From the NCBI RefSeq assembly GCF_009905545.1, contig NZ_JAAALB010000044.1, positions 1 through 50,944 on the forward strand: 50,944 bases of DNA, given 5' to 3'. Made by a program: the position numbers and the translations under genes. Below the pieces are notes generated by a model that was not told where the DNA came from, ran no database searches, and saw only the letters and a program-made list of their open reading frames with translations. Shown piece by piece: positions 2,309 through 27,228 of the stretch; positions within the stretch are counted from its first letter, which is position 1, and each line of letters begins with the position of its first letter. Origin of the DNA: Cellulophaga sp. BC115SP (lineage in GTDB: Bacteria > Bacteroidota > Bacteroidia > Cytophagales > Spirosomataceae).

Positions 2309-2404
2309 GAAGCGAAGGTGTTCCCGCACCCTCGCTTCAAAACTCCCTATCTTCTTTGGCAATGATGATTCACACTCAAAAAGTGTGCTGGGGGAGTATT
2401 TGCC
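2309..2404 (+). ncRNA. Structured susC leader RNA, copy 1
   Basis: Between fecR and susC lies a hairpin of 12-bp arms (2309-2320 with 2327-2338, one mismatch, loop TTCCCG) built around GAAGGTG/CACC. A second domain follows, closed by ACTCCC (2342-2347) with GGGAGT (2392-2397), enclosing a CACACT/AGTGTG hairpin (2371-2387). GGCAA (2358-2362) could also pair with TTGCC (2400-2404) as a pseudoknot. The first hairpin begins 125 nt before the susC ATG, against 124 nt in the copy before the second susC. Attenuator or translational control is inference. Confidence 0.55.
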
Positions 2405-2433
2405 GATTCGAATACGACAAATCAAACAAAAGT

Positions 2434-5400
2434 ATGAAAAACAAAGTACTATTTCAAAAAACAATCCTAAAAGTCATGAGGATAAGTTTCTATCAGGTGC
2501 TTATTGCGATGATCTGTACAACCATAGCCGAAGCCAGAGAAGGTGTGGCTCAGAGTGCGTTAAATCAGAGACTGAGTGTTCAAAGCAATAACCAATCGAT
2601 TGTAAGCATTTTACATAAATTAGAAAAGTTGTCGGATGTACGATTTATGTACAATCCACAAATTTTTGGTGGTGATGCCACCTCAAGCATTTCAGCAAAA
2701 AATGAAACACTAGATAATGTTTTGGAGCATTTGCTTAAACCTTTAAGGGTTGATTATGAGATGGTTGGTAATAAAATTATTCTGAAAAAGAATATGATGT
2801 TATCGACTATTGCTAACCTCGAAACTCGCATCAATACGACAATCATGCTCGGTGACCAGACCGTAAAAGGGAAGGTTGTAGATGAAAACGGACAGCCTAT
2901 TCCTGGTGCAAGTGTCATCATTAAAGGGACTACCAAAGGAACTACCTCCGACGAAAAAGGAGAATTTAGTATCATTGCACCAGAAGCAGGAGCACTTATT
3001 ATTTCGTCGGTAGGTTTCAACAAAAAAGAAATCAATATAGCAAAACGTGTATCTATTAACGTTACTCTAGAGTCAGACGTAAAGTCCCTCAATGAAGTCG
3101 TAGTGGTAGGTTACGGTACCGCCAAAAAAGCAACATTAACGGGTTCGGTTGCAACAGTATCTGCTCAAACTTTTAAAGATCGTGGTCCTGTATCTAGCCC
3201 CTTGGCAGCTTTACAAGGTCAGGTTGCAGGGGTGACAGTCACTCGTAACTCTGCACAGTCAGGGCGTGAAGGTTGGAATTTCCAAATCCGTGGAGCCGCT
3301 TCGGTCAATTCTACCGAACCTTTGGTAATTGTAGACGGCGTGCCAGTGCCGTCGGTAGGTGCGTTGAACTCATTTAACCCTAACGACATCGAAAATATAT
3401 CATTCCTAAAGGACGGTTCTGCTGCGATTTACGGTTCACGTGCGGCTGGTGGTGTCGTATTGATTACCACCAAGCGTGGCAAATCTGGTAAAGTTGTGAT
3501 TGATTATAATGGTTCGACTTCCATTAAAAAAGTAGGGTTACTCCCTAAGTTAGTGGATATTAAAGGTTGGGCTCCATTTGTGAAAGAAGCACGCGCCACT
3601 GACGGTTTTCCTGCGACAGATATTTGGTATAACTATGGTGCTGTTGCCGAAAAAGCGTTAGCCGCTGGTAAACAATGGTTAACAAAAGCTGAGTATGATG
3701 CTATGAGTACCAATGGTGCATCTTTATTTGGTGATGTAAAAGATTTTACGCTTTTCTCGGGTACTGAACAAGATATGCTTTGGGGTTCGGCCACATCTAC
3801 CGAGCATCAATTGAGTATTTCAGGTTCTACAGAAAAATCAGGTTACCGAATTTCCCTAGGTTATTTGAAAGATGGAAGTTTACTACAAGTAGGAAATAAT
3901 TTCTCAGACAGATATAACGCACGTCTTACGCATGATTATCAATTTTCTAAAAAGTTAAAGTTAGAAACAAACATTTCTTATGAAATTCAGAATATTGTTC
4001 AGCCAACATATTTAGGAGATGTGTTGAACAATGGTAATCAGCCTGGTAAGCCATTAAGTGGTTTGGGCTTGACAGGGAAACCTTATGTTTGGGGTTCGGG
4101 TTTGGGAAATGCCTCTGTAAATCAGATTGCACTTCAAGGTGGAGATAATAAGGAATATAACAATCGTTTGAACTCAAATGTGAATTTGACATATACTTTC
4201 AATTCAAATCTGAAGGCTGTGGGATATGCAGGTTTTTATCAACTAGATACCGATATTCGTACTTTGGGTAATTCAATCGGATGGTATGATTATACTGGAA
4301 CTGTTTTGATTTCGAATTTACCTACGAGAAGTTTCTATCAGCGTTCATCTCGTTTAGAAAACAACTACAACTTGAACGGATACTTGGAGTATGAGAAGGA
4401 AGTTGCTCAAAACCAGACAATTAAATCCGTGTTAGGTGCTCAGTATGAATTGTACCAACGTAATATATATTTGGCTAAAACTTTTGATGTATTAGCTAAC
4501 GTGCCTCCGTCACTTTCATTGAGCGTTGGAGATCCGACTTCAAAAACTGTGACAGAAAGTCAAACACATACTGCACTGGCAGGTTATTTTGCTCGTTTTA
4601 ATTATAATTTCAATGATAAATATTTTGTAGAAGCCAATGCACGTTACGATGGTTCGTCAAAATTTAGAGCGCAAGATCGTTGGAAATTATTCTATGGCGT
4701 ATCGGGCGGCTGGCGTTTAGGTCAAGAAGAGTTTATTAAAAATTTGAATATTTTTGATGAATTGAAATTAAGGGCTTCTTACGGTGTAATGGGTAATCAG
4801 AGTGGTATTAGTAATTATGACTATATCCAATTCCTAAACCTAGCATATTCTACCAGCTCTACAGATGCTAGTTACCCAATTTTAGGAACTAGTCCAGTAG
4901 TTCGTGTGTCACCAACAGGTACTTTGGTTGCTTATGACCGTACGTGGGAAAAACTAGAGACAGAGAACATTGGTTTAGATTTTGGTCTTTTAAAAAGACG
5001 TTTGTCTGGGTCATTTGATTATTTCTGGAAACGTAATGGTAATATGTTGTTGAGTCGTACTTATTCGGCAGTAATGGGGGCAAGCGCACCGACAGGAAAT
5101 AACGGCGATTTGAGTGTTTGGGGCTGGGATTTTTCATTGAATTGGAGAGACAAAGTGGGTGAGCTTTCTTATAACTTGGGCTTCAATATTTCGGATAGCC
5201 AAAATAAGTTAGTCAATTTTGGAGGACAAAACCTTATTAGCAGTGCCAACCGTGGATTTAATTCGGCTGTAGAGGGGTATCCACTCAACTCTTACTTTGG
5301 TTTGGTTTACGATGGTAGAATCCAAACGCAAGAGCAACTTGACAATTATCGTAAATTTATCACAGGCAATAACATTGGTATGCCTTCTGGAGTTGCAACA

Positions 5401-6036
5401 GCACAAGCCAATAGTCGTTTGGCTTTAGGCGACAATATGTTTAAAGATGTAAACGGTGACGGAAAAATTACTTTCCCTGAGGATGCCGTTTATTTAGGAA
5501 CAGATAATCCTCGTTATTCTTATTCAGTAAATGGTGGTTTGCAATTCAAAGGATTTGATTTTAGCTTTATTTTACAGGGAGTAGGAAAACGTACTATTAT
5601 TCGTGATGGTAACTGGCGAATTCCTGCAGCCGTAATTTTCCAAGCCCAAAACGCTGCCTTCTTAGATCAGTGGTGGACGCCAGAAAGAACCAATGCTGCT
5701 TTGCCACGTATTTCTTCAACAGGTACAATCAATAATTACAACTATTTCCCATCTGACTGGGTAGCTGAGGATGGTTCATATTTACGTTTGAAAAACTTAG
5801 TGATAGGTTATACCATTCCTAAAGCAATTACACAAAAAGCGAAAATAGAGCGATTGAGAGTATATTTCTCTGGAAACGATTTGTATGAATTTTCTAAAAT
5901 TCGCGATGGTTGGGATCCCGAGGCTCAAAGAACAGTATCTAATGCAGGCGATTCTAACAACCTTAATGTTAGTACAACGAGTCAGCGATTTCCATTCTAT
6001 CGTTATTTCACATTTGGGGTAAACTTAACTTTCTAG
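2434..6036 (+). CDS. SusC/RagA-type TonB-dependent outer-membrane transporter (module 1)
   Basis: Outer-membrane beta-barrel importing glycan fragments, energised by TonB and paired with the SusD-like lipoprotein encoded 36 nt downstream. Signal-like N-terminus to about residue 34; an STN domain at about 50-115 (ILHKLEKLSDVRFMYNPQ), which marks transducing receptors that signal to FecR; a carboxypeptidase-regulatory-like beta-sandwich from about 143 (VKGKVVDENGQPIPGASV). The hallmark LNEVVVVGYG is at about 220, followed by plug and barrel. A DVNGDGKI calcium-loop-like motif lies in the barrel. The frame opens at a TTG at 2356, but ATG at 2434 aligns with the start of the paralogue at 27259 and places the leader RNA outside the gene. 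About 1200 residues is normal. Confidence 0.96.
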   Translation: MKNKVLFQKTILKVMRISFYQVLIAMICTTIAEAREGVAQSALNQRLSVQSNNQSIVSILHKLEKLSDVRFMYNPQIFGGDATSSISAKNETLDNVLEHLLKPLRVDYEMVGNKIILKKNMMLSTIANLETRINTTIMLGDQTVKGKVVDENGQPIPGASVIIKGTTKGTTSDEKGEFSIIAPEAGALIISSVGFNKKEINIAKRVSINVTLESDVKSLNEVVVVGYGTAKKATLTGSVATVSAQTFKDRGPVSSPLAALQGQVAGVTVTRNSAQSGREGWNFQIRGAASVNSTEPLVIVDGVPVPSVGALNSFNPNDIENISFLKDGSAAIYGSRAAGGVVLITTKRGKSGKVVIDYNGSTSIKKVGLLPKLVDIKGWAPFVKEARATDGFPATDIWYNYGAVAEKALAAGKQWLTKAEYDAMSTNGASLFGDVKDFTLFSGTEQDMLWGSATSTEHQLSISGSTEKSGYRISLGYLKDGSLLQVGNNFSDRYNARLTHDYQFSKKLKLETNISYEIQNIVQPTYLGDVLNNGNQPGKPLSGLGLTGKPYVWGSGLGNASVNQIALQGGDNKEYNNRLNSNVNLTYTFNSNLKAVGYAGFYQLDTDIRTLGNSIGWYDYTGTVLISNLPTRSFYQRSSRLENNYNLNGYLEYEKEVAQNQTIKSVLGAQYELYQRNIYLAKTFDVLANVPPSLSLSVGDPTSKTVTESQTHTALAGYFARFNYNFNDKYFVEANARYDGSSKFRAQDRWKLFYGVSGGWRLGQEEFIKNLNIFDELKLRASYGVMGNQSGISNYDYIQFLNLAYSTSSTDASYPILGTSPVVRVSPTGTLVAYDRTWEKLETENIGLDFGLLKRRLSGSFDYFWKRNGNMLLSRTYSAVMGASAPTGNNGDLSVWGWDFSLNWRDKVGELSYNLGFNISDSQNKLVNFGGQNLISSANRGFNSAVEGYPLNSYFGLVYDGRIQTQEQLDNYRKFITGNNIGMPSGVATAQANSRLALGDNMFKDVNGDGKITFPEDAVYLGTDNPRYSYSVNGGLQFKGFDFSFILQGVGKRTIIRDGNWRIPAAVIFQAQNAAFLDQWWTPERTNAALPRISSTGTINNYNYFPSDWVAEDGSYLRLKNLVIGYTIPKAITQKAKIERLRVYFSGNDLYEFSKIRDGWDPEAQRTVSNAGDSNNLNVSTTSQRFPFYRYFTFGVNLTF

Positions 6037-6072
6037 TAAGAGGATTTAGGAAAATATAAATGAATTAAGATT

Positions 6073-7800
6073 ATGAAAATCAATAAGATATATATTAAAG
6101 CGGCTTTAGTTGGACTGTTGTTTACCACCGTTAGTTGTAATGACTTGGTTGACCTAAAGCCTATCAATGAAATTTCGGATGCCGATTATTGGAAAACTTC
6201 CGATCAGTTCAAGTTAGCTGCCAACGAATTTTATACTTATTTGCGTAGCTTCTCAGATATTCTAAATGATGCACCACATTCTGACCGTCGTGCTGACTTT
6301 GTATTTGTCTCTGGTGGCAATGCCTTTAGCAACGGTACCAACACAATTCCGCTGTCGGATGGTAACTGGAATAGTGCCTATTCAAGAATTCGTGCCACTA
6401 ACTACTTAATCGAAAAAGCAAGTGCGTATGCACAACCTATTGATATTAAACAGTTTGTAGCAGAGGCAAAGTTTTTTAGAGCATATACCTACTTTGACTT
6501 GTTGCAGCAATATGGTGAAGTACCGTTGATTACCAAAACATTGACGACCACTTCAAGCGAGTTGAACTCCCCACAAAATACAAGAGAAGAAATTGTGAAT
6601 TTTATCATCCAAGATATTGAGGCCGCTATTACGGATTTACCATTGGAATCTGCTATTGCTGCCGCTGATAAAGGTAGAGTGAGTAAAGGGGCAGCACAGG
6701 CTTTTTTGGGTAGAGTAACGTTGTATGAAGGTACTTGGCAAAAGTTTAGAGGAAATACTGCTCGTGCCAATACTTTGCTTGACAAATCTATCTCGAGCAA
6801 TGATGAGGTTATGAAAAGTTCTTTATATGAGTTGTTTGCACCAACTGCTTTGGGTGATTCAGCACAGAAGTATATGTTTATATTGGAAAATCAGCAATCA
6901 AATCCAGCCAATATTACGAAGGCAGCAAATAAAGAATATATTTTGGCGAACCGATACGATTTTGCTAGTCGCCAAATTAGATTAAATATTACGCATTCGG
7001 CACTTAATAACATATATTGGGTCACTCGTAAGTTTGCTACTCAGTATTTGTGTCAGGATGGTTTGCCTATTGATAAATCGCCTCTATTTAGAGGTTTTGC
7101 GACTACGACATCAGAATTCCAAAACCGTGATAATCGTATGCGATACAATATGATGGTTGATGGAAATTACTACTGGGATAATGAAAATCCTGGCGCGCGT
7201 GTAACTTGGAAAGGTGATGCAGCAGATATTGCTGCATCAAGAGGTAAACATAAATCTAATTCAAATTCAGGTTATGCCAATCAGAAATGGGCGACTGAAC
7301 GCCGTTTAGATGATAACCAAGAAGGGTATGATTTCCCTGTTATTCGTTATGCAGAGGTATTGTTGAATTATGCTGAGGCAGTTTATGAAAGAAATGGTTC
7401 TATTTCAGACGTGGACTTGAATCGTTCATTGAATTTGGTACGTAATCGTGTAAATAAGACCATGCCAAAATTGACCAATGCTTTTGTTTCGGCAAATGGC
7501 TTGGATATGCGTACGGAAATTCGCCGTGAAAGAAACATTGAATTGTATTTTGAAGGCTTTAGAAGAGATGATTTGATTCGTTGGAAAACTGCTGAAACAG
7601 AGTTACCATCGGATATTCAAGGGATTCAATGGACAGGCACAGCTTATGAAACCTATTGGACGGGTATTAAAAACAACATTGTCAATGGAGTATATCGCAT
7701 TGAATCGGGAAGAAGATGGCAGGACAGAAATTACTTATTGCCAATTCCATCACAACAGATTCAGTTAAATCCTAATTTGAAACAGAACGCTGGCTGGTAA
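6073..7800 (+). CDS. SusD/RagB-family glycan-binding lipoprotein (module 1)
   Basis: Surface lipoprotein forming the lid of the SusC barrel encoded immediately upstream. The N-terminus carries a signal peptide ending in the lipobox TTVSC, with Cys at about residue 22, followed by NDLVDLKPINEISDADYW, the usual SusD opening. TPR-like helices follow (AEAKFFRAYTYFDLLQQYGEVPL). The C-terminal SusD domain shows PVIRYAEVLLNYAEAVYE, RRERNIELYFEGFRRDDLIRW, and the family ending LPIPSQQIQLNPNLKQNAGW. Length (575 aa) is typical. Glycan specificity cannot be read from the sequence. Confidence 0.96.
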   Translation: MKINKIYIKAALVGLLFTTVSCNDLVDLKPINEISDADYWKTSDQFKLAANEFYTYLRSFSDILNDAPHSDRRADFVFVSGGNAFSNGTNTIPLSDGNWNSAYSRIRATNYLIEKASAYAQPIDIKQFVAEAKFFRAYTYFDLLQQYGEVPLITKTLTTTSSELNSPQNTREEIVNFIIQDIEAAITDLPLESAIAAADKGRVSKGAAQAFLGRVTLYEGTWQKFRGNTARANTLLDKSISSNDEVMKSSLYELFAPTALGDSAQKYMFILENQQSNPANITKAANKEYILANRYDFASRQIRLNITHSALNNIYWVTRKFATQYLCQDGLPIDKSPLFRGFATTTSEFQNRDNRMRYNMMVDGNYYWDNENPGARVTWKGDAADIAASRGKHKSNSNSGYANQKWATERRLDDNQEGYDFPVIRYAEVLLNYAEAVYERNGSISDVDLNRSLNLVRNRVNKTMPKLTNAFVSANGLDMRTEIRRERNIELYFEGFRRDDLIRWKTAETELPSDIQGIQWTGTAYETYWTGIKNNIVNGVYRIESGRRWQDRNYLLPIPSQQIQLNPNLKQNAGW

Positions 7801-7817
7801 TCCTGAATAATTTTATG

Positions 7818-7849
7818 ACGTATAGGGTACAAAGTAATGCCCTATACGT
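7818..7849 (+). terminator. Hairpin between susD and the large lyase gene
   Basis: Perfect 10-bp inverted repeat, ACGTATAGGG with CCCTATACGT, around a 12-base loop, 17 nt after the SusD stop. Only TTATT follows, so termination would be weak. It may reduce read-through into, or stabilise the transcript ahead of, the lyase gene at 7956. Nothing else is seen in the 155-nt gap. Confidence 0.45.
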
Positions 7850-7955
7850 TATTCCTAGCATACCTAATCACTCCCTAATTTTGCCTTCTTGAAACGCCCT
7901 ACACTTCTACTTAAAACCTCGAAATTTGATTTTCTAACATTTACTAAACGTTAAC

Positions 7956-10900
7956 ATGAAAACTTATTTAACGTGGCAACTACGATTATTGTTTCTAATA
8001 ATTGTAGGGTTGATGCCGTATGTCCATACTCAAGCACAAACCTTCACACATCCTGGAGTATCTCACAAAAAGTCTGACTTAGACAGGATGAAAGCCATGG
8101 TTGCTGCTGGAATCGAACCATGGAAATCCTCCTTTAAATCTCTTTCTCAAAGTCCTTATGCCAGTTATAGCTATGCTGTTCGAGGCAATGGTAGTACGAC
8201 TTTAGCAACGGTTTCGACCATAACTGGTTTTAATTATGATGACATCAAATACGATGGACTAGCCGCCTACTGTAATGCCTTGATGTGGTATGTAACAGGA
8301 GATGAGCGTCATGCCAAAAAAGCAGTGGAGATATTCAATGCTTGGTCCTATCTGCAAAGAATCAAAACGGGTGGTACTAGAAGTTTGGATGCTGGTCGTG
8401 TAATATGGAAATTGTTGGAAGGTGCCGAAATTATCAAGCATACCTACACTGGATGGAATGCGACCGACCTTGAAAGATTTAAGTCTATGCTAGTTTACCC
8501 AGGTTATTCGTCCACGGTAGAACCAACCGCTCAGATTAATAATGAAGAAGTGACCTTCTATTGGTTTATGTACAATGGCGATGCAGGTCGTCATGGCAAT
8601 CAAGGAATCTTCGGGATGAGAGGTGTCGCTGCTATGGGTATCTTTTTGGATAATCGGGTGATGTACGAACGCTCTATTCGATACCTAAAAGGGCTTCCTC
8701 ACCGTGCTGATGACCTTCCTTATCCAGCTGGACCACCAATCAATGGGACAACTCCGACCAGTGCCTCAAATGAATATCAAGAGGTATATGCGTTGAACGG
8801 CTTTGATAATTCTGTTCCTGATTATGGGTACAATGAATTAATTCAAAATTATGTTTGGGAAAATGGACAATGTCAAGAAAGTGCCCGAGACCAAACTCAC
8901 TCTTTGAATGGGGTAGGGAATATCTTGACCATTTGTGAAATGGCTTGGAATCAAGGCGATGATATCTATAGTTTTCTTGATAATCGATTGCTAAAGGGGA
9001 TGGAGTACAGCTATCGTTACAATGTTTCGCTCAATTATCCTTATCCTGACCAGACAACTCCTTGGGAACCGACAGTTGAATCAGGTGAATTTATTAGACG
9101 CCGTGATAGAACTGGTAGATGGCAATCGTTGAGAATGAATCCGCTCAATGAAGGAAAAACCGCAACAACAAGAGCTACTGGGTTTAAATTTGACCGTGCA
9201 CCGATTACCGAAATGGTATTGGGGCATTATCGAGATAGAATAGGTGTTAACGCCAATAATTACAAATGGACACAACGTGCTTATGATATTTCGACACAAG
9301 AGTTAGGTGTTGAAAGCCAAGGTTTTGAGGTCGATTATCCTGGTTGGGGTGGCTTGACTTTTCATAGAACATCTCTTTCTCCTGGCGATGCTTGTGCTTT
9401 TGTGAATGGAAAACCTGTTTTTGCAATTCCCAATTTTCCTGCTACAATCGAAGCTGAAAACTTTGACTATATGCCTACCGATGGACAAAACAAAACATTT
9501 TACGATTTGAGTAACTCAAATACTGGCGGTCAATTTCGTCCGAACGAAGCGGTTGACATTGAAAGTCGAAGTAATGGAGGATACCACTTGACGTTTTTAG
9601 AGGCAGGAGAATGGGTAAACTATACGGTAAATGTGCCAACAGCAGGACGTTTTAAGATCAATATCAATGCTTTGGTTCTTGCAGCAGGAGGGAAAATCAA
9701 AATTGAGTTTGATGGAACAGATAAGACGGGCGAATTTGATATACCTGCAAATGGAAATTCTGATTGGCAAACGATTACCATTGCGCCACAAGTGAGTTTA
9801 CATGCAGGTGTTCAAAGCATGAGAATCAAAATAGTAGGAGTTTCTAATGCCTTCAAGTTGGATAATATCGTGGTGGAATACCTTGGTGCTTTACCAACAC
9901 AAACGATCTCATTTCCTGCCATTGCTACAAAGTCTTTTGGTGCGGCGAATTTCAATCCTAGTGCCAGTACAAGTTCTGGACTACCTGTAACTTATACAAG
10001 TTCAAATACTTCCGTAGCAACAATTGTCAATGGACTTGTGCAAATAGTTGGTGTAGGTTCTTGTCTGATTACAGCCTCTCAACAAGGGAATGATGATTAT
10101 GCTGCAGCACAAAGCGTAAGTCGCACGCTATTAGTGACGGGTATCGCCGCTGGAGATTATCTGTCCTCGGGTAATATGAATTGGAATGGTGGAACTTGGA
10201 ATATTTCAGATGGAAACGGCGGAATCGCAAGCTCAACCACAACAGCTCCGACTGCCAATACTAATGTTCATATTCTAGCAGGACATACTGTTACCTTATC
10301 TTCCGTAGCAGGTTCTTGCAAAAGTTTGACAGTCAATGCGCAAGCAACACTCACAGAAACAATTGCCCTCACAGTAGCCAATACCTTGATTATGGATGGC
10401 ACAATGACACATACTGGTGCGATTACAGCAAATGGTGATGTCTTTGTAGGAGGTATTTGGACTGCCTCAAGTAATCTAACGGTGGCGAAGAATTTTTCTA
10501 TTCAAAGTTCAGGGGTGTATAAATCTTCAACCGCACCAGGTGGGTCAGTTTTTAGTTTGACGGTCAATGGCAATGACGCTGTTGTTCGTGTAGATGGAAC
10601 TTTAGGAGGAACTACCACAGGCAATAGCACCGTTGGAGAAGGAATCAGACTTTATCTCGGGGGAAGCGGTTCGCCAACGGTAACAGGTACAGGCATAGTG
10701 AATATTGCTCGTTTTCAACCAACTGGTAACAATATCCAAAATATCATTTTTGATATAGATATGAATTTCGGTAACAACAGTGTGCAATCCAGTGGGATAA
10801 ATACCTTATCATTATTGGCAGGAACTTCTAATAAAACGCTGACTATTAATGCAGGAAAAACGGTAAAAATTTCTAATCCCAATGGCTCATTTCATTCCCC

Positions 10901-13598: not shown

Positions 13599-13613
13599 AT
13601 CAGGTTTTTACAG

Positions 13614-13650
13614 ATTCGAGAGTCTTTTTGAGGCTCTCGAATTTTATTTT
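13614..13650 (+). terminator. Rho-independent terminator after the large lyase gene
   Basis: Perfect 9-bp inverted repeat ATTCGAGAG / CTCTCGAAT (13614-13622, 13634-13642) runs into TTTTATTTT, 15 nt after the stop codon. It separates the lyase transcript from the downstream regulator. Confidence 0.88.
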
Positions 13651-13710
13651 ATAGTTTCCAGTGTCTCTCGAAATGCTTGCTTACGAGCTTAACTTTTACC
13701 CTGTCAAAAC

Positions 13711-13743
13711 TTTTTTACATATTTTTCTTCATAAAAGGGTATC
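13711..13743 (+). promoter_or_regulatory. Putative ECF-type promoter element before the LacI-type gene
   Basis: TTTTTTAC (13711-13718), 18 nt spacer, then GGGTATC (13737-13743) preceded by AAAA and followed by AAATTC. The element before the second fecR homologue has the same two blocks with a 19-nt spacer. The regulator start lies 223 nt downstream, so the leader is long. Function is inferred from recurrence. Confidence 0.5.
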
Positions 13744-13966
13744 AAATTCAAAAAGTGGCATCTTTTTATTGTGGACTACTTAGAAATTGCACTAAGAGTA
13801 TATGATTCATTATAAAATCAATAATTTTTCATAGATTTTTAAGAAAAAGTAGAAATGCAGTCTGTGGAGAGGATGGATGTTTTTTCAAAAACTAGGTTTT
13901 TTTATGAGAATAATCGTTTAACTTGTATGCTACTTCCCGAAAAACTTAAAACGATTGTGTTTGTAG

Positions 13967-15126: not shown

Positions 15127-15172
15127 TGGCATAAAGCCCACAGCGCTAATATTTATCCCTTTTTTTAATTGA

Positions 15173-15192: not shown

Positions 15193-15203
15193 AGTGAATT
15201 GCT

Positions 15204-16391: not shown

Positions 16392-16419
16392 ATCAATGTC
16401 ACATAACCTCTGAATATAC

Positions 16420-16497
16420 TTACTCATCTCGTCTATTGGGGTTTTAGATTTACACCTATTTGGATTGGATAGTTTTACCGAATAGACGGATGAGTAA
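16420..16497 (+). repeat. Long inverted repeat between GH88 and GH97
   Basis: Arms 16420-16437 and 16481-16497 (TTACTCATC(T)CGTCTATT) pair over 17 bp with one bulged T, around a 43-nt loop, and end 27 nt before the GH97 start. No T-run follows the right arm, so an intrinsic terminator is unlikely. A processing or mRNA-stability element is possible. Confidence 0.5.
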
Positions 16498-16524
16498 CAA
16501 ACAAAAACAATCATTTCTAACATT

Positions 16525-18426: not shown

Positions 18427-18446
18427 TTTAGAGAAACAGGTTAATT

Positions 18447-19295: not shown

Positions 19296-19353
19296 TTAAT
19301 GAATTAATCAAACATTATTGCTATCGGTTTCTGTCCTAAAGCACACCAAAATC

Positions 19354-20568
19354 ATGTCCAAAATTAAAGCCTCTTTAACGGAGCGAACGTACTTAGTTAC
19401 CTTCGCTTTCGTTACCTCATTGTTTATGCTTTGGGGAATTGCACACGCCATGAGCGATGTATTAAACAAACATTTTCAAAATGTACTTCAAGTAAGCAAA
19501 GCCCAATCTGGTCTCATTCAATTATCCGTTTTTGGTGCGTATGCCATCATGAGTATTCCTGCTGGACTATTCATGAAGCGATTTGGGTATAAAGCTGGCG
19601 TATTGTTTGGCTTAGTCCTGTTTGCTTCGGGCACGTTCTTATTTGTTCCTGCTGCGAATGCCGAATCTTTCGGAATGTTTCGATTGGCCTTATTCATTTT
19701 AGGTTGTGGAATGGCGACGCTCGAAACGGTAGCACATCCCTTTGCAGCCGCTCTTGGCTCGCAAGAAACCTCAGACCAACGACTCAATTTCTCCCAATCA
19801 TTCAATGCTGTCGGAACGATTATTGGTCCTGCTATTGGATCCTATTTTCTATTGAGAGCTAGTGGAAATGAGGGAAATGATTTAGGTTCTGTAAAAAGTC
19901 TGTATGTTTCCATAGGAATAGCCATTTCTGTTGTTGCCGTATTATTCTCTTTTATTCAAGTGCCTAATTTAGAGGTTGGTCATCATGGTACTGAGTCAGA
20001 TACTACGGAGGAAGAGACTCCATTATGGAAACAAAAACATTTTATCTGGGCAGTCGTCGCACAGTTTTTCAATGTTGCAGCCCAAGCAGGAACATGGTCA
20101 TTCTTTATTAATTATGGACATGACGTCATGGGCTTTTCTGACGAACAAGCTGCTAATTACATGATTGTTTTTATGGCAATGATGGCGCTTGGTCGTTTTG
20201 TGGGGACTTTCCTGATGAAATTTATTGCTCCAAACAAGCTCTTAGGAATCTTTGCTACAGGTAGTATCATTGCTTGTCTGGTGGTAGCACAAGCTTGGGG
20301 TTGGATTTCTTACAGTGCCTTAATGATGATAAATTTCTTTTTCAGCATCATGTTTCCGACCATCTTTAGTTTAGGATTGAAGAGCCTAGGCAATCATACA
20401 CAACAAGGCGCGTCCTTTATTTCAATGGGCGTAGTCGGTGGTGCCTTTTTCCCTCTTCTGATGGGATTAGTTGCCAACCAGAATGTCGCTCAGGCATATT
20501 ATCTACCAATAATCTGCTATCTGGTTATTGCAGTTTTTGCATTTAGGTTATATAAAATAAAAAAATAA
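19354..20568 (+). CDS. MFS sugar:proton symporter, FucP-like
   Basis: Inner-membrane major-facilitator transporter of the FucP (fucose permease) type, about 12 hydrophobic segments. Family features are FVTSLFMLWGIAHAMSDVLNKHFQ in the first helix and GAYAIMSIPAGLFMKRFGYKAGVLFGL across helices 2-3. ATLETVAHPFAAALG...RLNFSQSFNAVGTIIGPAIG marks helices 4-5. The frame is open from a TTG at 19318, but the ATG at 19354 (MSKIKASLTERTY) gives the usual short cytoplasmic lead. Likely imports a monosaccharide released by the periplasmic hydrolases and handed to the adjacent ROK kinase. FucP relatives take several different sugars, so the substrate is open. Confidence 0.9.
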   Translation: MSKIKASLTERTYLVTFAFVTSLFMLWGIAHAMSDVLNKHFQNVLQVSKAQSGLIQLSVFGAYAIMSIPAGLFMKRFGYKAGVLFGLVLFASGTFLFVPAANAESFGMFRLALFILGCGMATLETVAHPFAAALGSQETSDQRLNFSQSFNAVGTIIGPAIGSYFLLRASGNEGNDLGSVKSLYVSIGIAISVVAVLFSFIQVPNLEVGHHGTESDTTEEETPLWKQKHFIWAVVAQFFNVAAQAGTWSFFINYGHDVMGFSDEQAANYMIVFMAMMALGRFVGTFLMKFIAPNKLLGIFATGSIIACLVVAQAWGWISYSALMMINFFFSIMFPTIFSLGLKSLGNHTQQGASFISMGVVGGAFFPLLMGLVANQNVAQAYYLPIICYLVIAVFAFRLYKIKK

Positions 20569-20576
20569 TACGAATA

Positions 20577-20583
20577 GGGTATC
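20577..20583 (+). promoter_or_regulatory. GGGTATC element upstream of GH43
   Basis: GGGTATC directly follows an A/T-rich run of mostly A and lies 160 nt before the GH43 start, immediately after the transporter stop. It matches the core of the elements before both fecR homologues and the LacI-type gene. The upstream TTTTTTAC block is not clear here, so this is the weakest member of the set. Confidence 0.35.
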
Positions 20584-20662
20584 TTAAGACCTGATTCTTC
20601 TCCTTATCTCAGAAACTCAATTCTGAATATATCAAAGTTACTTTTTCTATTTCAGAAAATTG

Positions 20663-20707
20663 ATTTCCCTTAAGCAAGTAAACCTTCATCACTTGTTTAA
20701 GGGAAAT
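20663..20707 (+). repeat. 17-bp hairpin upstream of GH43
   Basis: Arms 20663-20679 and 20691-20707 (ATTTCCCTTAAGCAAGT and its near complement) pair over 17 bp with one G-U pair and an 11-nt loop. An exact palindrome TTGATATATCAA follows at 20710-20721. No good T-run follows, so a leader or mRNA-stability structure is as likely as a terminator for the transporter gene. Confidence 0.5.
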
Positions 20708-20743
20708 TCTTGATATATCAATACTCGTCTTAATCTAAAATCA

Positions 20744-22387
20744 ATGGATTCATTCAAAAACCTACTTTTCAAAATAACGCTATTAGGAGGCTTATGCTTT
20801 AACGATAAAGCACTTCTGGCACAAAAGCCATTTGTATCAAAAGCGTGGGTGGCCGATAACGGAGATGGTACATACAAAAATCCTGTACTCCATGCCGACT
20901 ATTCCGATCCTGATGCCATTCGTGTCGGCAATTATTATTACTTGGTTGCTTCCTCCTTCGAAAATATCCCAGGACTACCGATTTTACGTTCCAGCGATTT
21001 GGTCAATTGGAAAATTATTGGAAATGCGTTGATAGTTCAAACGCCCAAAGAAGTTTTCGATACTCCACAACATGGAAAAGGGGTTTGGGCACCAGCCATT
21101 CGATATAACAAAGGTGAGTTCTTGATTTACTATCCCGATCCTGATTATGGAATTTATGTAATTCGTTCGAAAAATCCAGCAGGACCTTGGTCGACGCCAG
21201 TGTTGGTTGAGGCAGGTAAAGGATTGATTGACCCTTGCCCTTTTTGGGATGAGGATGGAAAGGCTTATTTAATTCATGGATTCGCGGGTAGTCGTGCAGG
21301 AATTAAGAGTTTTCTTGTCCTAAAATCATTGAGTGCTGATGGCTCGAAAGTACTGGATGCTGGTAAAATTATCATTGATGGACATGAAACAGACCCAACT
21401 TTAGAAGGACCTAAAATCTATAAACGAAATGGTTTTTATTACGTGTTTGCTCCTGCAGGTGGCGTGGCTACAGGTTGGCAATTGGTATTTCGTTCCAAAA
21501 ATATTTATGGACCCTACGAAAGAAAGGTTGTGATGGATCAAGGTAAAACGGCAATCAATGGTCCTCATCAGGGTGCTTGGGTGAGTACACCAACTGGAGA
21601 AGATTGGTTTTTACATTTTCAGGATAAAGGCGTATTTGGTCGAGTGGTACATTTGCAACCTATGTCGTTCAACAACGCTTGGCCAGTCATTGGCACAGAC
21701 CCCGATCATGATGGCAAAGGTGAACCTGTTACCACTTACAAAAAGCCCAAAAGTACCCTTCCAACGGTTATAGAGACTCCACAAGATACCGATGAATTCA
21801 ATTCGCTCGATTTGGGTTTACAGTGGCAGTGGAATGCCAATCCAAAGGTCACTTGGGCATTTATGTATCCTAGCAAAGGTTCTCTTCGCTTGTTTACTGA
21901 TAAAATTCCAGCTGGAGAAAACTTGTGGTGGACACCTAATGTACTTCTTCAAAAGTTTCCTGCTCCTGTTTTTACGGTTACCACCAAGTTGCAATTTACC
22001 CCATGTGAAAGGTTAATTAATGAAAAAGTAGGCTTGACTATTTTGGGTTTTAGCTATGCCAATATTGCCTTAAAATCGGCAAAAGATGGTGTTTGGCTCA
22101 CCTACACTACTTGCAAGGATGCTGACAACCACAAGCCAGAAACAGAAACCAAAATCAAATTGGTCGATCCCAAGCAGGCTATTTATTTGAGGCTTGCTAT
22201 GAAGGATGATGGATTATGCAAGTTTAGCTATAGTCAAGATAATCAGAATTTTACAGAAGTAGGGGAGGCGTTCCAATCAGAAGTTGGACGTTGGATAGGC
22301 GCTAAATTTGGGTTGTTCGCAACGCGTGAAGATACCATTAATGATGCAGGATTTGCTGATTTTGATTGGATAAGGGTTGAAAAATAA
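20744..22387 (+). CDS. GH43-family beta-xylosidase / alpha-L-arabinofuranosidase
   Basis: Five-bladed beta-propeller glycosidase acting on pentose-containing side chains or oligosaccharides. Signal-like N-terminus (about 1-27, ends LLAQ). The three GH43 acids are visible: base Asp55 in DYSDPDAIRVGNYYYLVASSF, Asp163 in LIDPCPFWDEDG, and acid Glu221 in DPTLEGPKIYKRNGFYYVFAPAGG. A C-terminal beta-sandwich follows (about 340-547), of the type common in GH43 subfamilies (NSLDLGLQWQWN...AKFGLFATRE...AGFADFDWIRVE). 547 residues is normal for the two-domain form. Begins 175 nt after the transporter and is followed 34 nt later by the heparinase-family lyase, probably co-transcribed. Specificity (xylose or arabinose) cannot be decided; the GH127 gene elsewhere in the locus makes arabinose attractive. 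Confidence 0.93.
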   Translation: MDSFKNLLFKITLLGGLCFNDKALLAQKPFVSKAWVADNGDGTYKNPVLHADYSDPDAIRVGNYYYLVASSFENIPGLPILRSSDLVNWKIIGNALIVQTPKEVFDTPQHGKGVWAPAIRYNKGEFLIYYPDPDYGIYVIRSKNPAGPWSTPVLVEAGKGLIDPCPFWDEDGKAYLIHGFAGSRAGIKSFLVLKSLSADGSKVLDAGKIIIDGHETDPTLEGPKIYKRNGFYYVFAPAGGVATGWQLVFRSKNIYGPYERKVVMDQGKTAINGPHQGAWVSTPTGEDWFLHFQDKGVFGRVVHLQPMSFNNAWPVIGTDPDHDGKGEPVTTYKKPKSTLPTVIETPQDTDEFNSLDLGLQWQWNANPKVTWAFMYPSKGSLRLFTDKIPAGENLWWTPNVLLQKFPAPVFTVTTKLQFTPCERLINEKVGLTILGFSYANIALKSAKDGVWLTYTTCKDADNHKPETETKIKLVDPKQAIYLRLAMKDDGLCKFSYSQDNQNFTEVGEAFQSEVGRWIGAKFGLFATREDTINDAGFADFDWIRVEK

Positions 22388-22421
22388 AACAGTAACTAAA
22401 CATTTTTCTTGAGTAAAATAG

Positions 22422-24701
22422 ATGAAGCATTATAAAAGATTAGTTTTCCTTTTCTTCCTCAGTACGCTGATGGGAGTGAGTGCTTTGGCACAGAAGCATC
22501 AAAAATTGTTTTTTACGCCAGAACGAATTTCGTTCTTAAAAAAACGAATTGAAACTGATGCGGAGGTTCGTAAAAACTGGGAAGAAGCACTGGCAGTCGC
22601 TAAGCATCAACTTGAAAAGCCTGACTTGGATAAAATTGATTATTTGAGTCTTGCTTACCTTATGACGGGTGAGCAAGTTTATGCTGACAAAGTAAAAGAA
22701 CAACTTTTGAAACTTTGTACCAAAAGCACATGGTCGAATCCTGAAATGTTGAAACGCCAACCAGCTTGGTCGTCCGATTTGCGAACAGCAGGTAATTGCT
22801 GGATTGTGACAATGGGCTTAGAGGGCGTCTATGACCAGTTGTCGAAGGACGATAGAAAAATTATTGTTTCAGGCTTGATGCGCATGGGTATTCGTCCTGC
22901 TTTGGACGAGTGGTTTTTGCCTGAAAAGAGAATCCATACGCTCAACTCTATGGGTCATAACTGGTGGTCATCTTGTGTATATATGGCTGGTGTGGCGTTA
23001 CTTTCGGTGAAGGATGAAGTTCCAGAATCAGCTCAATGGCTCAAAGATTTGAGTGCTTCTGCCGAAGAATGGTTTGGTTTTACGGGAGATCAATTACAGC
23101 ATAAAGTCAAAACTTGGGATGCGAAAGGTGGAATGTATGAAAGTGTAAATTACGCTTCTTTCGGCGTTTCAGAGTATCTTTTGTTTCGTTTGGCTTTTCA
23201 AAATGTTTTGCCTAAAGTAAAACAACCTGATATTCCTTTGCTCAAAAATATTCCCTCCTTTTTTATGAATGTGGGTTATCCTCGTGATGGAATGATGTAC
23301 TCGTTGACTTTTGGGGATAGTCATAAAAATATCGTAGGCGAACGACCAGTCAAATTGCTATGGGCATTGGGCTACCAAGATCCCAATGCTTTGTGGTATT
23401 TGAATAATATCGAAACGGGACAGCATCGTGAAGGTCTGGCAAAAAATGCGCCGATGGGCTTGATTTTTCATCCTGACTTTTCTAAATCGCCTGAATTACC
23501 CAATCTTCCAACTTCGCAATTATATGAAGATATGGATTGGGCAACGCTCAGGGATTCTTGGAAGAAAAATTCGACATTGTTGGCAGTAAAATCTGGTCAT
23601 ACATGGAATCACTCTCATGCCGATGTCAACTCTTTTTTGCTTTTTCACAAAGGCGAATTTGTTATCAAGGATGCAGGGCATAGCTGGTATGCCTCCAAAG
23701 AATATCCAGCCTATTTTTTTCAAAGCCCTGCGCACAACGTCTTGACTTTTAATGGAAAATATCAACCAACAGAACAACAATATCATGGAGCACCGCTCCG
23801 TGGCGAAATGTCAGAACTGTTAGACGCTGGCGATATTAAATATGTGATGTCGAACGGTACTGGACCTACGTCGTGGATTTACTCTCGAAATTTTCGCCAT
23901 TTTCTATGGATAGGTAAAGTCATTTTAGTCATTGACGACGTGAAAGCGCATGAAACAGGAAAATTTGAATGGTTATTGCATCCTGCTGGCGAATCTCAAA
24001 AAGTGCGTGGAGATATTAGTATCGTCAACAAAAAAGGAGCGGTATTGGTCAGACCACTTTTTCCAGAAACCTTAGTTGAAACAGGTTTTAACCATGATTT
24101 TCCTGAAAAAATGACGCTTAATGAAATCCTTGCCCCGAATGAAGAAAATGTAAAGGAGCAAGAAAAGTATTACAGTATTGGTTATCCAGAGCAAGTGCGT
24201 CAAACCAAATTTATCACCGCTATTATTCTTAAAGATTCCATCAACGATACCAATATTCCAGTAATTGAAAGAATGACAGGAGAGGATATGATTGGGGTGA
24301 AAATCAAGCAAGATGGTAAAGTCACAGATGTGTATTTGAATCTCAAAGCTGATGGTAGGTTGATGCACCTCAATAGTATCAAAACATTTGGAGGATACAC
24401 AACTGACGCCTACTTAACGGCAATTTCGTATCCTGAAAATGCGCCTAATACCATTTCAAGCTATTTTATTGGATACGGAAGCTTTTTAAGAAAGGATACT
24501 ATCAGCTTGTTTAGTTCATTATCTAAATTGTCATTAGTGGTCAAAGAAAAGGATGCCAAATATGATATCCAAGTGACTGGACAGCCATTGATTCGTGCAA
24601 CATTTTCAGCTTCTGAAAAACCCATAAATTTAAGTGTAAATGGGCAAATGCAGAAAGTAGACTTTCAAAAAGGAAATTTTTCTATAAATTTACAGAAATA
24701 G
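22422..24701 (+). CDS. Heparinase II/III-family polysaccharide lyase
   Basis: Two-domain lyase: an N-terminal (alpha/alpha)-toroid (about 30-370) and a C-terminal heparinase II/III-like beta-sandwich (about 380-650). Signal peptide at 1-23 (ends SALAQ). Toroid motif LNSMGHNWWSSCVYMAGVALL with GGMYESVNYASFGVSEYLLF; sandwich motif HTWNHSHADVNSFLLFHKGEFVIKDAGHSWYASKEYP (about 390-430), with the family's histidines and metal-site region. PL12, PL15, PL17 and PL21 share this layout; I cannot assign the family. In context it probably acts on oligosaccharides produced by the secreted lyase at 7956, giving products for GH88. Last gene of the run that starts at 15204. Confidence 0.88.
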   Translation: MKHYKRLVFLFFLSTLMGVSALAQKHQKLFFTPERISFLKKRIETDAEVRKNWEEALAVAKHQLEKPDLDKIDYLSLAYLMTGEQVYADKVKEQLLKLCTKSTWSNPEMLKRQPAWSSDLRTAGNCWIVTMGLEGVYDQLSKDDRKIIVSGLMRMGIRPALDEWFLPEKRIHTLNSMGHNWWSSCVYMAGVALLSVKDEVPESAQWLKDLSASAEEWFGFTGDQLQHKVKTWDAKGGMYESVNYASFGVSEYLLFRLAFQNVLPKVKQPDIPLLKNIPSFFMNVGYPRDGMMYSLTFGDSHKNIVGERPVKLLWALGYQDPNALWYLNNIETGQHREGLAKNAPMGLIFHPDFSKSPELPNLPTSQLYEDMDWATLRDSWKKNSTLLAVKSGHTWNHSHADVNSFLLFHKGEFVIKDAGHSWYASKEYPAYFFQSPAHNVLTFNGKYQPTEQQYHGAPLRGEMSELLDAGDIKYVMSNGTGPTSWIYSRNFRHFLWIGKVILVIDDVKAHETGKFEWLLHPAGESQKVRGDISIVNKKGAVLVRPLFPETLVETGFNHDFPEKMTLNEILAPNEENVKEQEKYYSIGYPEQVRQTKFITAIILKDSINDTNIPVIERMTGEDMIGVKIKQDGKVTDVYLNLKADGRLMHLNSIKTFGGYTTDAYLTAISYPENAPNTISSYFIGYGSFLRKDTISLFSSLSKLSLVVKEKDAKYDIQVTGQPLIRATFSASEKPINLSVNGQMQKVDFQKGNFSINLQK

Positions 24702-24708
24702 AAGTGTT

Positions 24709-24765
24709 AAAAGTTTCTTTTGATGGTAGGTATTCTGTGAGTATTTCAAAACAAAAGAAACTTTT
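24709..24765 (+). terminator. Long-stem hairpin after the heparinase-family gene
   Basis: Perfect 14-bp inverted repeat, AAAAGTTTCTTTTG and CAAAAGAAACTTTT, around a 29-nt loop, starting 7 nt after the stop codon. The right arm itself ends in CTTTT, giving a short U-run. Likely the end of the 15.2-24.7 kb transcript. Confidence 0.55.
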
Positions 24766-24843
24766 ACCAATATGAAAAACTCCATTTTTTATAAGTTAGT
24801 GGACAAAATTAAAATAATTTTACCTCCATTAAGCACTAAGCTG

Positions 24844-24952
24844 TAAGCTAAAAGTTGAAAAGTATTTCTCATGAAATAATCTAAGCTTTTTTGCCTAACG
24901 CCTACGGCTTACAGCCTAAAGCATATTAATGCAGCTTTATTTTGCATTAATA
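24844..24952 (-). repeat. Dispersed intergenic repeat, copy 2 (inverted relative to copy 1)
   Basis: On the minus strand it has a 10-bp stem (TATTAATGCA / TGCATTAATA, 24943-24952 and 24924-24933) with the loop AAAATAAAGC. It ends in AACTTTTAGCTTA (24844-24856). Both blocks and their spacing match copy 1 at 15023-15126. The two copies face each other across the GH88-to-heparinase gene run. Confidence 0.6.
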
Positions 24953-25025
24953 CTTAAATTAAGCCTATGAATTAATAAAGATTGATAAACCAAAACTATG
25001 AATGTCTAAACTTTAACTATTTTCT

Positions 25026-25655
25026 ATGAAAGTGAATGAAAATATACCTCGTGATGAAGCTCTATTAAGTGAATTATGGTTGCGATTTAAACAGGGAGAT
25101 GGAGAGGCTTTTGACCAAATTTTTGCTTTACGCTATCGCGAGCTTTTTAATTACGCCACTCGCTTCACCAAAGACCATGAGTTTATTAAAGATTGCTTAC
25201 AAGATTTGTTTCTCGAAATGTGGTCGCATCGTGAAGGATTAGTTGAAAATCCTTACGTGACGGTCTATTTGATTAAGGCGCTTCGAAATAATTTGTTTCG
25301 AAAACTGAAGCTAGAGAAACGACTTGGTGCACCCACAGACCTCAATGACGAACTTTATTTTTTAAGTGATGGTCAATCTATGGAATCAGAATGGATAGCC
25401 GCCGAGTTGTTGGATGAAAATGAACAAAGTATTCGCCAGGCAATTTCACAACTTTCGAAGCGACAGCAAGAAGTAATTTTTCTAAAGTACTACAAAGGGC
25501 TTTCCAATGAGGAAATAGCCACAATTATGGATATTGAAAGACAAACTGTTGCTAACTTTTTGCATCGTTCGCTCACGAATCTCAAACGCAGTTTGTTAAT
25601 GGTGGCAGAGTTTTTACTACTTCCATTTATCAAGTTTTTATATCTTGACTTTTAA
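25026..25655 (+). CDS. ECF RNA polymerase sigma factor, FecI-like (module 2)
   Basis: Second FecI-like ECF sigma factor in the locus, paralogous to the product at 200-829. Region 2 is LFNYATRFTKDHEFIKDCLQDLFLEMWSHRE; region 4 is LSKRQQEVIFLKYYKGLSNEEIATIMDIERQTVANFLHRSLTNLKR. The short hydrophobic C-terminal tail (LLMVAEFLLLPFIKFLYL) is common in Bacteroidetes ECF factors. Unlike module 1, the sigma gene here is codirectional with fecR and separated from it by 316 nt with its own promoter-like element. It presumably works with FecR homologue 2, though cross-talk between the two modules is possible because the fecR upstream elements match. Confidence 0.94.
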   Translation: MKVNENIPRDEALLSELWLRFKQGDGEAFDQIFALRYRELFNYATRFTKDHEFIKDCLQDLFLEMWSHREGLVENPYVTVYLIKALRNNLFRKLKLEKRLGAPTDLNDELYFLSDGQSMESEWIAAELLDENEQSIRQAISQLSKRQQEVIFLKYYKGLSNEEIATIMDIERQTVANFLHRSLTNLKRSLLMVAEFLLLPFIKFLYLDF

Positions 25656-25971
25656 ACAAATCACTCTTTTTTAACCTTACACGCTTGTAGTGTAACCTCC
25701 TCCTTATGTCTTTTTGTTGACCGAAGCTTGGCTTTGGTTATTGTCGTTTTAGCGAGTTTCATCAAAGAAAACCTTGATGTTAGACGGAGTAGTGAACGTA
25801 AAAAGAACTACTTACGATTCAGTAAGGGTACTTTTTATAGCCTAACGACAGTAAAAGGAGATTAATAATTTATAAGGTCAATTTTTTTACAAAAAAAATC
25901 ATTACAAAAGGGTATCAATAATTCAATAGCTACTATATCATACAAGAAAGGCTAATAACACAATTTTATCT
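25656..25971 (+). other. 316-nt structured intergenic region between sigma 2 and fecR 2
   Basis: No gene seen. The region is dense in short inverted repeats: TTACAC/GTGTAA at 25677-25695, ACCGAAG/CTTTGGT around 25720-25740, AGTAGT/ACTACT around 25790-25815, and GTCGTT near 25745 with AACGAC near 25850. The last pair would close a larger fold. The promoter-like element lies at 25883-25916. Possible uses are a terminator for the sigma transcript or a small RNA; no known RNA family is recognised. Confidence 0.4.
25883..25916 (+). promoter_or_regulatory. Putative ECF-type promoter element before fecR homologue 2
   Basis: TTTTTTAC (25883-25890), 19-nt spacer, then AAAAGGGTATC ending at 25916. The core ends 55 nt before the start codon, identical to the spacing at fecR homologue 1. 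The two-block form closely matches the element before the LacI-type gene. Confidence 0.55.
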
Positions 25972-27087
25972 ATGCAGAATTATATAGAATTTACGGTAAA
26001 AGATTTCATGTTAGATGATGCCTTTTGTCGATGGGTAATACAGAACTCAGAAACGGATAATCATTTTTGGAACAACTGGTTACTTGAAAATCCACACCAA
26101 ATCAAAAATGTAGAAACTGCCAAAGAAATTATTAAAAAGATACGTGCCGCCCATGAAGAAATTTCAGAAAGCGATTTGAATGCTGAAATTAGAAGGTTTT
26201 CAGATAGCAGAAAACTGTTGTCTGTGACACCTCAAATAGATTCACCAAAAGGACGTTTGATCGATTTTGCCAAATTATGGAAAGTAGCTGCCGTATTTTT
26301 AGTAGGAGTTTTTGGAGTAATATATCTGTCAAAGCAAACAGGTATCGATGAGTTTAGTTTTCAGAAAACCGCCTATAAAAAACGAACTGACGACAAGAAA
26401 GAGGTATTAGAAGAAGTCATTAACGACTCCGAAAAAACAAAGCTCGTGGATTTACCCGATGGCAGTCAGGTAACCCTATCAAAGCATAGTCGTGTTAGTT
26501 ATCCGAAGTCTTTTTCGGCTACCCAACGAGAAGTTTATTTGAGTGGAGAGGCTTTTTTTGAAGTATCCAAAAATCCTCATAAGCCTTTTGTGGTTTATGC
26601 CAATGAGCTAGCAACAAGGGTTTTAGGGACCAGCTTTACAATTAGTTCTTATGATAAAGAAGAAGAGGTAAAAGTGATCGTAAAAACAGGAAAAGTAGCA
26701 GTTTTTCCTTTGAATAACGAAGATGAAGTATTAGAAAAAAAGCCAGAGGTAATGCTTACACCCAATCAGAAGGTGGTTTTCAATCGAGTAGATAACCAAA
26801 TGAAACGGTCGATTGTCGCAACTCCTGAGCCTCTCAAAAGTATCGTGCCAACTAGTAAATATTTAGTATTCGAAAATACACCTGTTACACAAGTTTTTGA
26901 AAAACTGTATGAACTGTATAACATTCCAATGGTGTACGATAATACATTAATGGTCAATTGCCGAATCACGGCAGAACTTGGAAATCAACCATTATTTGAA
27001 AAGCTCGATTTGATTTGCAGAGCAATCGATGCCAAATATGAAGTGATAGATGGACAGATCGTGATTCATGGAAAAAAATGTAACTAG
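25972..27087 (+). CDS. FecR-family anti-sigma factor (module 2)
   Basis: Inner-membrane anti-sigma factor paralogous to the one at 1130. It opens with MQNYIEFTVKDFMLDDAFCRWVIQNSE, has a membrane segment near residues 105-120 (VAAVFLVGVFGVIYLS), and a periplasmic FecR domain (LVDLPDGSQVTLSKHSRVSYP...GEAFFEVSKNPHKPFVVYA...VLGTSFTI). The C-terminal DUF4974/STN-like domain ends LICRAIDAKYEVIDGQIVIHGKKC. Cysteines (NCRITAEL and the C-terminal KKC) match those of the paralogue and may form a disulfide. 371 residues. The start is the first ATG and aligns with the paralogue. The susC homologue follows after a structured 171-nt leader. Confidence 0.95.
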   Translation: MQNYIEFTVKDFMLDDAFCRWVIQNSETDNHFWNNWLLENPHQIKNVETAKEIIKKIRAAHEEISESDLNAEIRRFSDSRKLLSVTPQIDSPKGRLIDFAKLWKVAAVFLVGVFGVIYLSKQTGIDEFSFQKTAYKKRTDDKKEVLEEVINDSEKTKLVDLPDGSQVTLSKHSRVSYPKSFSATQREVYLSGEAFFEVSKNPHKPFVVYANELATRVLGTSFTISSYDKEEEVKVIVKTGKVAVFPLNNEDEVLEKKPEVMLTPNQKVVFNRVDNQMKRSIVATPEPLKSIVPTSKYLVFENTPVTQVFEKLYELYNIPMVYDNTLMVNCRITAELGNQPLFEKLDLICRAIDAKYEVIDGQIVIHGKKCN

Positions 27088-27134
27088 CCTTCAAATAGTT
27101 CTATACCAGTTTCATTACCCATTTCAACAAAAAA

Positions 27135-27228
27135 GTCGAAGGTGTAGCAGCACCTTCGACTGAGGTTTCCCTACATGTTGCGCTAACAACTTCCGACCTA
27201 CGCTAATAGGTTGGGCAGGGATTTTTTT
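27135..27228 (+). ncRNA. Structured susC leader RNA, copy 2
   Basis: A perfect 10-bp hairpin, GTCGAAGGTG / CACCTTCGAC (27135-27144, 27151-27160, loop TAGCAG), is followed by a domain closed by TCCCT (27168-27172) and AGGGA (27217-27221). This encloses GTTG/CAAC and CCGACCT/AGGTTGG hairpins and runs into TTTTTTT (27222-27228). The layout parallels the leader at 2309-2404, with the first hairpin 124 nt before the start codon. The closing stem plus T-run looks like an attenuator terminator. Confidence 0.6.

Follow-up and report, generated by a model that had tools for sequence, protein, structure and literature searches.

The closest described systems are small RNAs (sRNAs) of Bacteroides. DonS-like antisense RNAs are described as repressive RNAs of 78-128 nucleotides (nt) (PMC7366714), and DonS of Bacteroides fragilis is reported to repress its locus (PMC7366714, PMC11697453). 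For Bacteroides thetaiotaomicron, 32 antisense RNAs associated with polysaccharide utilization loci (PULs) have been described (PMC10994844). FopS and GibS of the same species, with RbpB, are described as multicopy sRNAs repressing susC-like genes, four of the 14 FopS being classed as antisense RNAs (PMC11697453), and control of metabolic genes by mRNA leaders at their 5' end has also been described there (cited in PMC7366714). Here we analysed a stretch of 50,944 nt from Cellulophaga sp. BC115SP (contig NZ_JAAALB010000044.1, positions 1 to 50,944), called the window below, in which two gaps between a fecR-type gene and a susC gene contain hairpins. The original prediction had taken these for a conserved structured leader RNA of both susC genes. 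We consider it probable that each gap encodes a DonS-like cis-antisense RNA of about 120 nt opposite susC, most likely holding susC and susD down.

Like DonS and the PUL cis-antisense RNAs of Bacteroides, the RNAs predicted in the window are divergent to a susC homologue and on the opposite strand. Both copies, at about 120 nt, fall within the published length range, although some of the 51 non-redundant elements of the family (85-142 nt, median 121) exceed it. We added to the comparison a promoter and an intrinsic terminator of the RNA's own, which sRNA genes have by general definition; both are predicted for the window copies by sequence only, with a weaker box in copy 2. In the lineage of the window the predicted fold of the RNA begins with P1, a 5' hairpin, continues with a closed domain in which P2 encloses the P3 hairpins, and finishes with a terminator (P4), whereas the Bacteroidales elements that were folded look simpler by eye. 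The likeness to DonS is drawn from published descriptions; R2, the covariance model built from the 51 elements, was compared with Parabacteroides and Bacteroides elements. FopS RNAs have a conserved sequence and are described as binding target mRNAs near the start codon (PMC11697453), whereas each window copy lies opposite its own susC, and the copies have a common fold more than a common sequence. The leader control of B. thetaiotaomicron likewise acts at the RNA level, but through a sense leader, while the window element is on the opposite strand. No report of susC antisense RNAs in Cytophagales was found in the open-access literature searched. By analogy, the window elements most likely work like DonS while having a four-stem fold in this lineage, and the reading we favour is a DonS-like antisense repressor whose four-stem fold is absent from Rfam.

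Two predicted antisense RNAs in the window

R2 matched both copies, which are themselves training copies, on the minus strand: copy 1 at 2303-2436 with 72.9 bits and copy 2 at 27127-27261 with 66.4 bits. The predicted parts and the adjoining genes are listed below. The 5' ends of both copies were placed by setting the -7 box at -12 to -5 (PMC9723704).

2303..2422, minus strand: predicted antisense sRNA of copy 1 (R2 match), about 120 nt long, with its 5' end close to 2422 (+/-2) and its 3' end within the U-tract
2427..2434, minus strand: putative -7 box of copy 1, TACTTTTG, of the form TAnnTTTG (family profile), overlapping the susC start codon (ATG 2434-2436)
2398..2422, minus strand: predicted stem P1 of copy 1, arms 2415-2422 and 2398-2405 (single-sequence fold; own-versus-swapped test)
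2342..2397, minus strand: predicted domain P2/P3 of copy 1, P2 arms 2392-2397 and 2342-2347, P3a 2371-2387, P3b 2349-2369 (fold)
2309..2338, minus strand: predicted intrinsic terminator hairpin P4 of copy 1 (first hairpin of the original prediction), 12 pairs including one G.U (terminator scan, fold)
2303..2308, minus strand: U-tract of copy 1 (terminator scan)
27128..27247, minus strand: predicted antisense sRNA of copy 2 (R2 match), about 120 nt, 5' end near 27247 (+/-2)
27252..27259, minus strand: putative, weaker -7 box of copy 2, TAACTTGT, lying over the susC start codon and closer to TAnnTTGY than to TAnnTTTG
27225..27245, minus strand: predicted stem P1 of copy 2 (fold)
27168..27221, minus strand: predicted domain P2/P3 of copy 2, P2 arms 27215-27221 and 27168-27174 (fold)
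27134..27161, minus strand: predicted intrinsic terminator hairpin P4 of copy 2 (the other first hairpin), 11 pairs, no G.U (terminator scan, fold)
27128..27133, minus strand: U-tract of copy 2 (terminator scan)
1100..2227, plus strand: FecR-type anti-sigma gene beside copy 1 (Pfam FecR, FecR_C)
2434..6036, plus strand: susC with STN domain, proposed target of copy 1 (Pfam STN, CarbopepD_reg_2, Plug)
25972..27087, plus strand: FecR-type anti-sigma gene beside copy 2 (Pfam search)
27259..30657, plus strand: susC with STN domain, proposed target of copy 2 (Pfam search)

Both loci have the gene order FecR-type (Pfam FecR, FecR_C), SusC (STN, CarbopepD_reg, Plug) and SusD, with sigma-factor genes nearby. 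The parts described by the original prediction are present in the two gaps, namely the first hairpins, a TCCCTA/GGGA stem around the inner hairpins and a T-rich TTTGC. From the hairpin start to the susC ATG (2434 in copy 1, 27259 in copy 2) the distance is 125 nt in both copies, or the 124 nt given for copy 2 when counted from 27135. The statement that no named RNA family applies also agrees with our searches: Rfam 15 gave no match in the window at the gathering score, and a permissive search reached at best 22.1 bits for copy 1 (gathering score 40) and 13 bits for copy 2 (gathering score 35). A tRNA search of the window found none. The pseudoknot proposed for copy 1 has real complementarity behind it (2358-2362 with 2400-2404, GGCAA/TTGCC), but on the minus strand this pairing would compete with stem P1, whose first base is the predicted start of the copy 1 RNA, and as a feature of the family the pseudoknot lacks support. 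Just past the copy 1 terminator, at 2289-2301 on the minus strand, lies a second, shorter terminator-like hairpin, perhaps a back-up terminator.

Strand, promoter-like box and fold

In both copies the A-run preceding the first hairpin is, on the minus strand, a U-tract behind that hairpin, and every match listed by intrinsic terminator scans of the two gaps lies on the minus strand. The copy 1 hairpin has an A.C mismatch when read on the plus strand, where the minus-strand hairpin has a G.U pair. The comparison was widened to 143 3' flanks of fecR-type genes (18 from the own genome, 25 from loci of related genomes and 100 from further stretches); 41 had gaps below 90 nt and were left unscanned, two lacked a downstream frame, and 100 had gaps of at least 90 nt and were scanned. 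A minus-strand terminator was found in 73 of these 100 gaps, a count inflated by sister-species orthologues among them, and a plus-strand terminator in two, compared with 2.9 and 0.3 in shuffles. The T-tract of the terminator often lies within a few tens of nt of the fecR stop. When hairpins were sought without strand preference in 49 non-redundant gaps, the odd stem pairs strongly favoured the minus strand: 58 were G.U there, and 8 were G.U on the plus strand (seen as A.C on the minus strand).

Folding energies were expressed as z-scores against dinucleotide shuffles. Copy 1 gave -4.1 on the plus and -3.3 on the minus strand, and copy 2 gave -4.3 and -4.9, respectively. Over the 51 non-redundant elements, which had been selected by their minus-strand terminator, the mean was -4.2 for the minus and -2.7 for the plus strand, with the minus strand more negative in 40; with the terminator left out, the means were -2.05 and -1.24, and the minus strand was lower in 39 of the 51. 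Together, the direction of the U-tract, the asymmetry between G.U and A.C, the strand folding energy and the -7 box at the start codon argue for a separate RNA from the opposite strand and speak against a sense leader of susC. Judged from these features, the hairpins of both gaps belong to the minus strand and not to the susC sense strand.

Read on the minus strand, the susC start codon overlaps TAnnTTTG, the motif described as -7 box for the housekeeping sigma factor of the Bacteroidetes (PMC7366714, PMC9723704). The exact box, CAAANNT-ATG on the sense strand, was present in 49 of the 73 gaps with a terminator versus 11 of the 68 flanks without one. Its profile over 46 non-redundant loci reads T, A3 (0.89), n, n, T6 (0.93), T7 (1.00, invariant), T8 (0.93) and G9 (0.65), with a weak TTTG about 20 nt further up. 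In the own genome, the exact box occurs at five of ten susC genes with an N-terminal extension versus none of 20 others. A T at -1 is also frequent where the element is missing, preceding 34 of 66 first ATGs of susC. The copy 1 box is exact, and that of copy 2 is weaker; at 27252-27259 it fits better to TAnnTTGY, described as the variant motif SM5 of Flavobacterium psychrophilum (PMC9723704). A sense promoter of the extracytoplasmic function (ECF) type was sought upstream of susC in the form of CGT-type dyads, but these were no more frequent than in shuffles.

Of the predicted stems, the terminator P4 is the best supported. In a sequence-only alignment of all 51 elements, RNAalifold recovered 12 pairs of P4, every one showing two-sided changes, and the P4 apex is conserved, at about UGNUSSNA(A)CA. 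P1 and P2 were assessed on single-sequence folds with shuffle and swap controls. The strict architecture of P1 plus domain was present in 37 of the 51 non-redundant RNAs compared with 4.7 expected from shuffles, and exactly two domains lay between the predicted start and the terminator in 40 of the 51. In the swap test, the P1 5' strand had its own partner within the best 10% for 18 of the 51 elements, with 5.1 expected. These counts bear out the earlier view that the gaps hold two copies of one architecture. The accompanying claims of RNA-level selection and kept spacing are supported as well, and among the stems covariation was seen for the terminator; P1 and P2 did not appear in the sequence-only alignment. 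Pair counts on a trimmed alignment (A3) were circular, its rows having been cut by structure, and carry no weight; an N-padded alignment was dropped because P2 was shifted in it.

Occurrence in the genome, the order and the class

A search of the whole own genome with R2 gave 11 matches of 49.6-83.8 bits, the next scoring 24.2, and by position all 11 are antisense at a susC start. In this search 150 of 6764 candidates were scored, and nine of the 11 matches are training elements; the other two are on C122 (63.6 bits), where the scan had missed the terminator, and at C196:48545 (49.6 bits). A first model, R1, built from loop-trimmed rows, was rejected as weak and misplaced the -7 box; it scored the window copies at 30.0 and 24.3 bits against 18.8 bits for a sense match. 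The match at C196:48545-48672 lies opposite a susC without STN (Pfam) and adjoins a gene of response-regulator type, not fecR, so that the antisense RNA would not be strictly tied to sigma/anti-sigma loci. Thirty of the 56 susC loci of the own genome were read. A minus-strand terminator 60-150 nt before the possible start was present at eight of ten susC genes with an N-terminal extension and at none of the 20 without it; one susC without the extension (L031) has a two-way terminator further up.

The original prediction had proposed to search with a covariance model upstream of susC genes in Cytophagales, and R2 does find matches in that order. At E <= 0.001, 23 of 194 genomes of the order match, 14 of them in the window's family (own included) and nine others, five of which are in one other family; three genomes of the family are shown as lacking a match, 151 others that also lack one are unlisted, and some of the genomes searched had also supplied training elements. 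Among the 28 loci read from this search, four repeat training elements (L388, L389, L399 and L407). The remaining 24 comprise 22 that lie opposite an open frame of 501 amino acids (aa) or more, with its start at the complement of model position 1, and two (L404 and L405) that have no opposing frame. All five opposing proteins tested by Pfam were SusC-like with STN.

The class was sampled through 89 fecR-type flanks from 31 genomes (29 loci and 60 stretches), Parabacteroides acidifaciens among them; 22 gaps were shorter than 90 nt and two lacked a frame. The remaining 65 gaps held 30 minus-strand terminators, two of them more than 250 nt from the start, and one plus-strand terminator, counted without a shuffle control. 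At 24 named susC loci there were ten minus-strand terminators and one on the plus strand. R2 was run on 42 loci of the class, the majority selected because they have a minus-strand terminator, and at E <= 1 it gave 28 matches on 27 loci, 27 antisense and one partial sense; at E <= 0.1, ten of 13 named genomes match. Weaker matches include those of Parabacteroides (31-48 bits) and one of Bacteroides propionicigenes (35.6 bits), antisense at susC starts, as well as Echinicola and others. Thirty loci were read in the named genomes: 28 oppose a long frame, and L421 and L430 lack one. One of the 28 (L419) opposes a frame which, from its resemblance, we take to be htpG, and ten of ten opposing proteins chosen for Pfam were SusC-like. 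In P. acidifaciens, at L227 and L276, two hairpins of the predicted antisense RNA have different stems and the same loop, GCGTCAAC, hinting at a repeated recognition loop.

Weighing the readings and a proposed mode of action

Several observations weigh against a structured antisense RNA of the DonS-like kind. P1 and P2 are absent both from the sequence-only RNAalifold alignment of the 51 elements and from a helix scan run on the 28 matches (21 of them non-redundant) aligned to R2, and the swap test for P2 was weak, with the own partner in the best 10% for eight of the 51. The folding z-score of copy 1, taken alone, favours the plus strand. Besides the inflation by orthologues, 27 of the 100 longer gaps have no minus-strand terminator, and many fecR loci are without the element. 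The own-genome R2 search, with 150 of the 6764 candidates scored, lacked four training elements (C124, C152, C24 and C196:156867). In the class, 15 of the 42 loci had no R2 match at E <= 1, and at E <= 0.1 R2 found none in Bacteroides salyersiae, a Prevotella or Marinilabilia salmonicolor. Part of the conservation of the -7 box may be due to the A-rich translation start that it overlaps. As for the model system, the mechanism of DonS is called unknown in one source (PMC11697453), and positive as well as negative correlations are described for the antisense RNA and PUL pairs of B. thetaiotaomicron (PMC10994844).

Three other explanations were considered. It is unlikely, in our judgement, that the hairpins form a structured sense leader in the 5' untranslated region of the susC mRNA, acting by attenuation or in a riboswitch-like manner. 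The plus strand does fold better than its shuffles, with the lower z in copy 1, and any sense RNA begun at or upstream of fecR would contain the region; yet the odd stem pairs lean 58 to 8 towards the minus strand, whose z is the more negative in 40 of the 51 elements (39 without the terminator), a set picked by minus-strand terminator. The attenuator proposed for copy 2 has its seven T after the closing stem, but plus-strand terminators were found in just two of the 100 gaps and one of the 65 class gaps. A sense leader may nevertheless pair with the antisense RNA.

An account in which the box merely marks the sense translation start, any antisense RNA starting elsewhere, has a slightly better but still small chance of being right. 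The frequent T at -1 at first ATGs without the element and the weak box of copy 2 fit it, whereas the full CAAANNT-ATG separates loci with the element from those without (49 of 73 versus 11 of 68), as it does extended susC genes of the own genome from others (five of ten versus none of 20), and in copy 1 the predicted start coincides with the first base of P1. Least probable to us is a terminator alone, a hairpin that keeps stray antisense transcription out of fecR with no regulatory RNA involved. Such a role would suit P4 being the best supported stem and the T-tract being often so close to the fecR stop; it sits poorly with the conserved -7 box, the similar distance to susC and predicted RNA length (85-142 nt, median 121), the P1/P2 architecture shared by 37 of the 51 elements (4.7 expected), and the lack of such a terminator at that distance in all 20 susC genes without the extension.

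For the favoured DonS-like antisense RNA, strand, terminator, promoter-like box, fold, family and location are read from the sequence, and from these we infer its transcription, start site, repression and switch logic. The housekeeping sigma factor would start the RNA at the TAnnTTTG-type box across the susC start codon, and the RNA would end at the intrinsic terminator behind fecR. Without substrate it would keep susC and susD expression low, as DonS does in B. fragilis, by pairing with susC transcripts that cross the region, by opposing transcription, or by both. Release of the ECF sigma factor would bring sense transcription across the antisense promoter, silencing it. A promoter over the start codon suggests a simple way for a sigma factor that senses substrate to override its own antisense brake. 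R2 offers a way to predict from sequence which nutrient loci of the Bacteroidota carry the RNA, on which strand and with what approximate start.

A bolder idea, which we put forward as possible though doubtful, is that this is a phylum-wide device, with the promoter of a structured antisense RNA embedded in the susC start codon, so that sense and antisense transcription would exclude each other and each locus would have a built-in threshold switch. In the window's family the RNA would then have developed into a four-stem form whose P4 apex is recognised by a protein, perhaps of the RRM type, and which acts beyond simple pairing.

As a separate observation, the own genome encodes a single RRM_1 protein, at C147:35637-35843 within a 113-aa frame, which by analogy with RbpB is a candidate RNA-binding partner.

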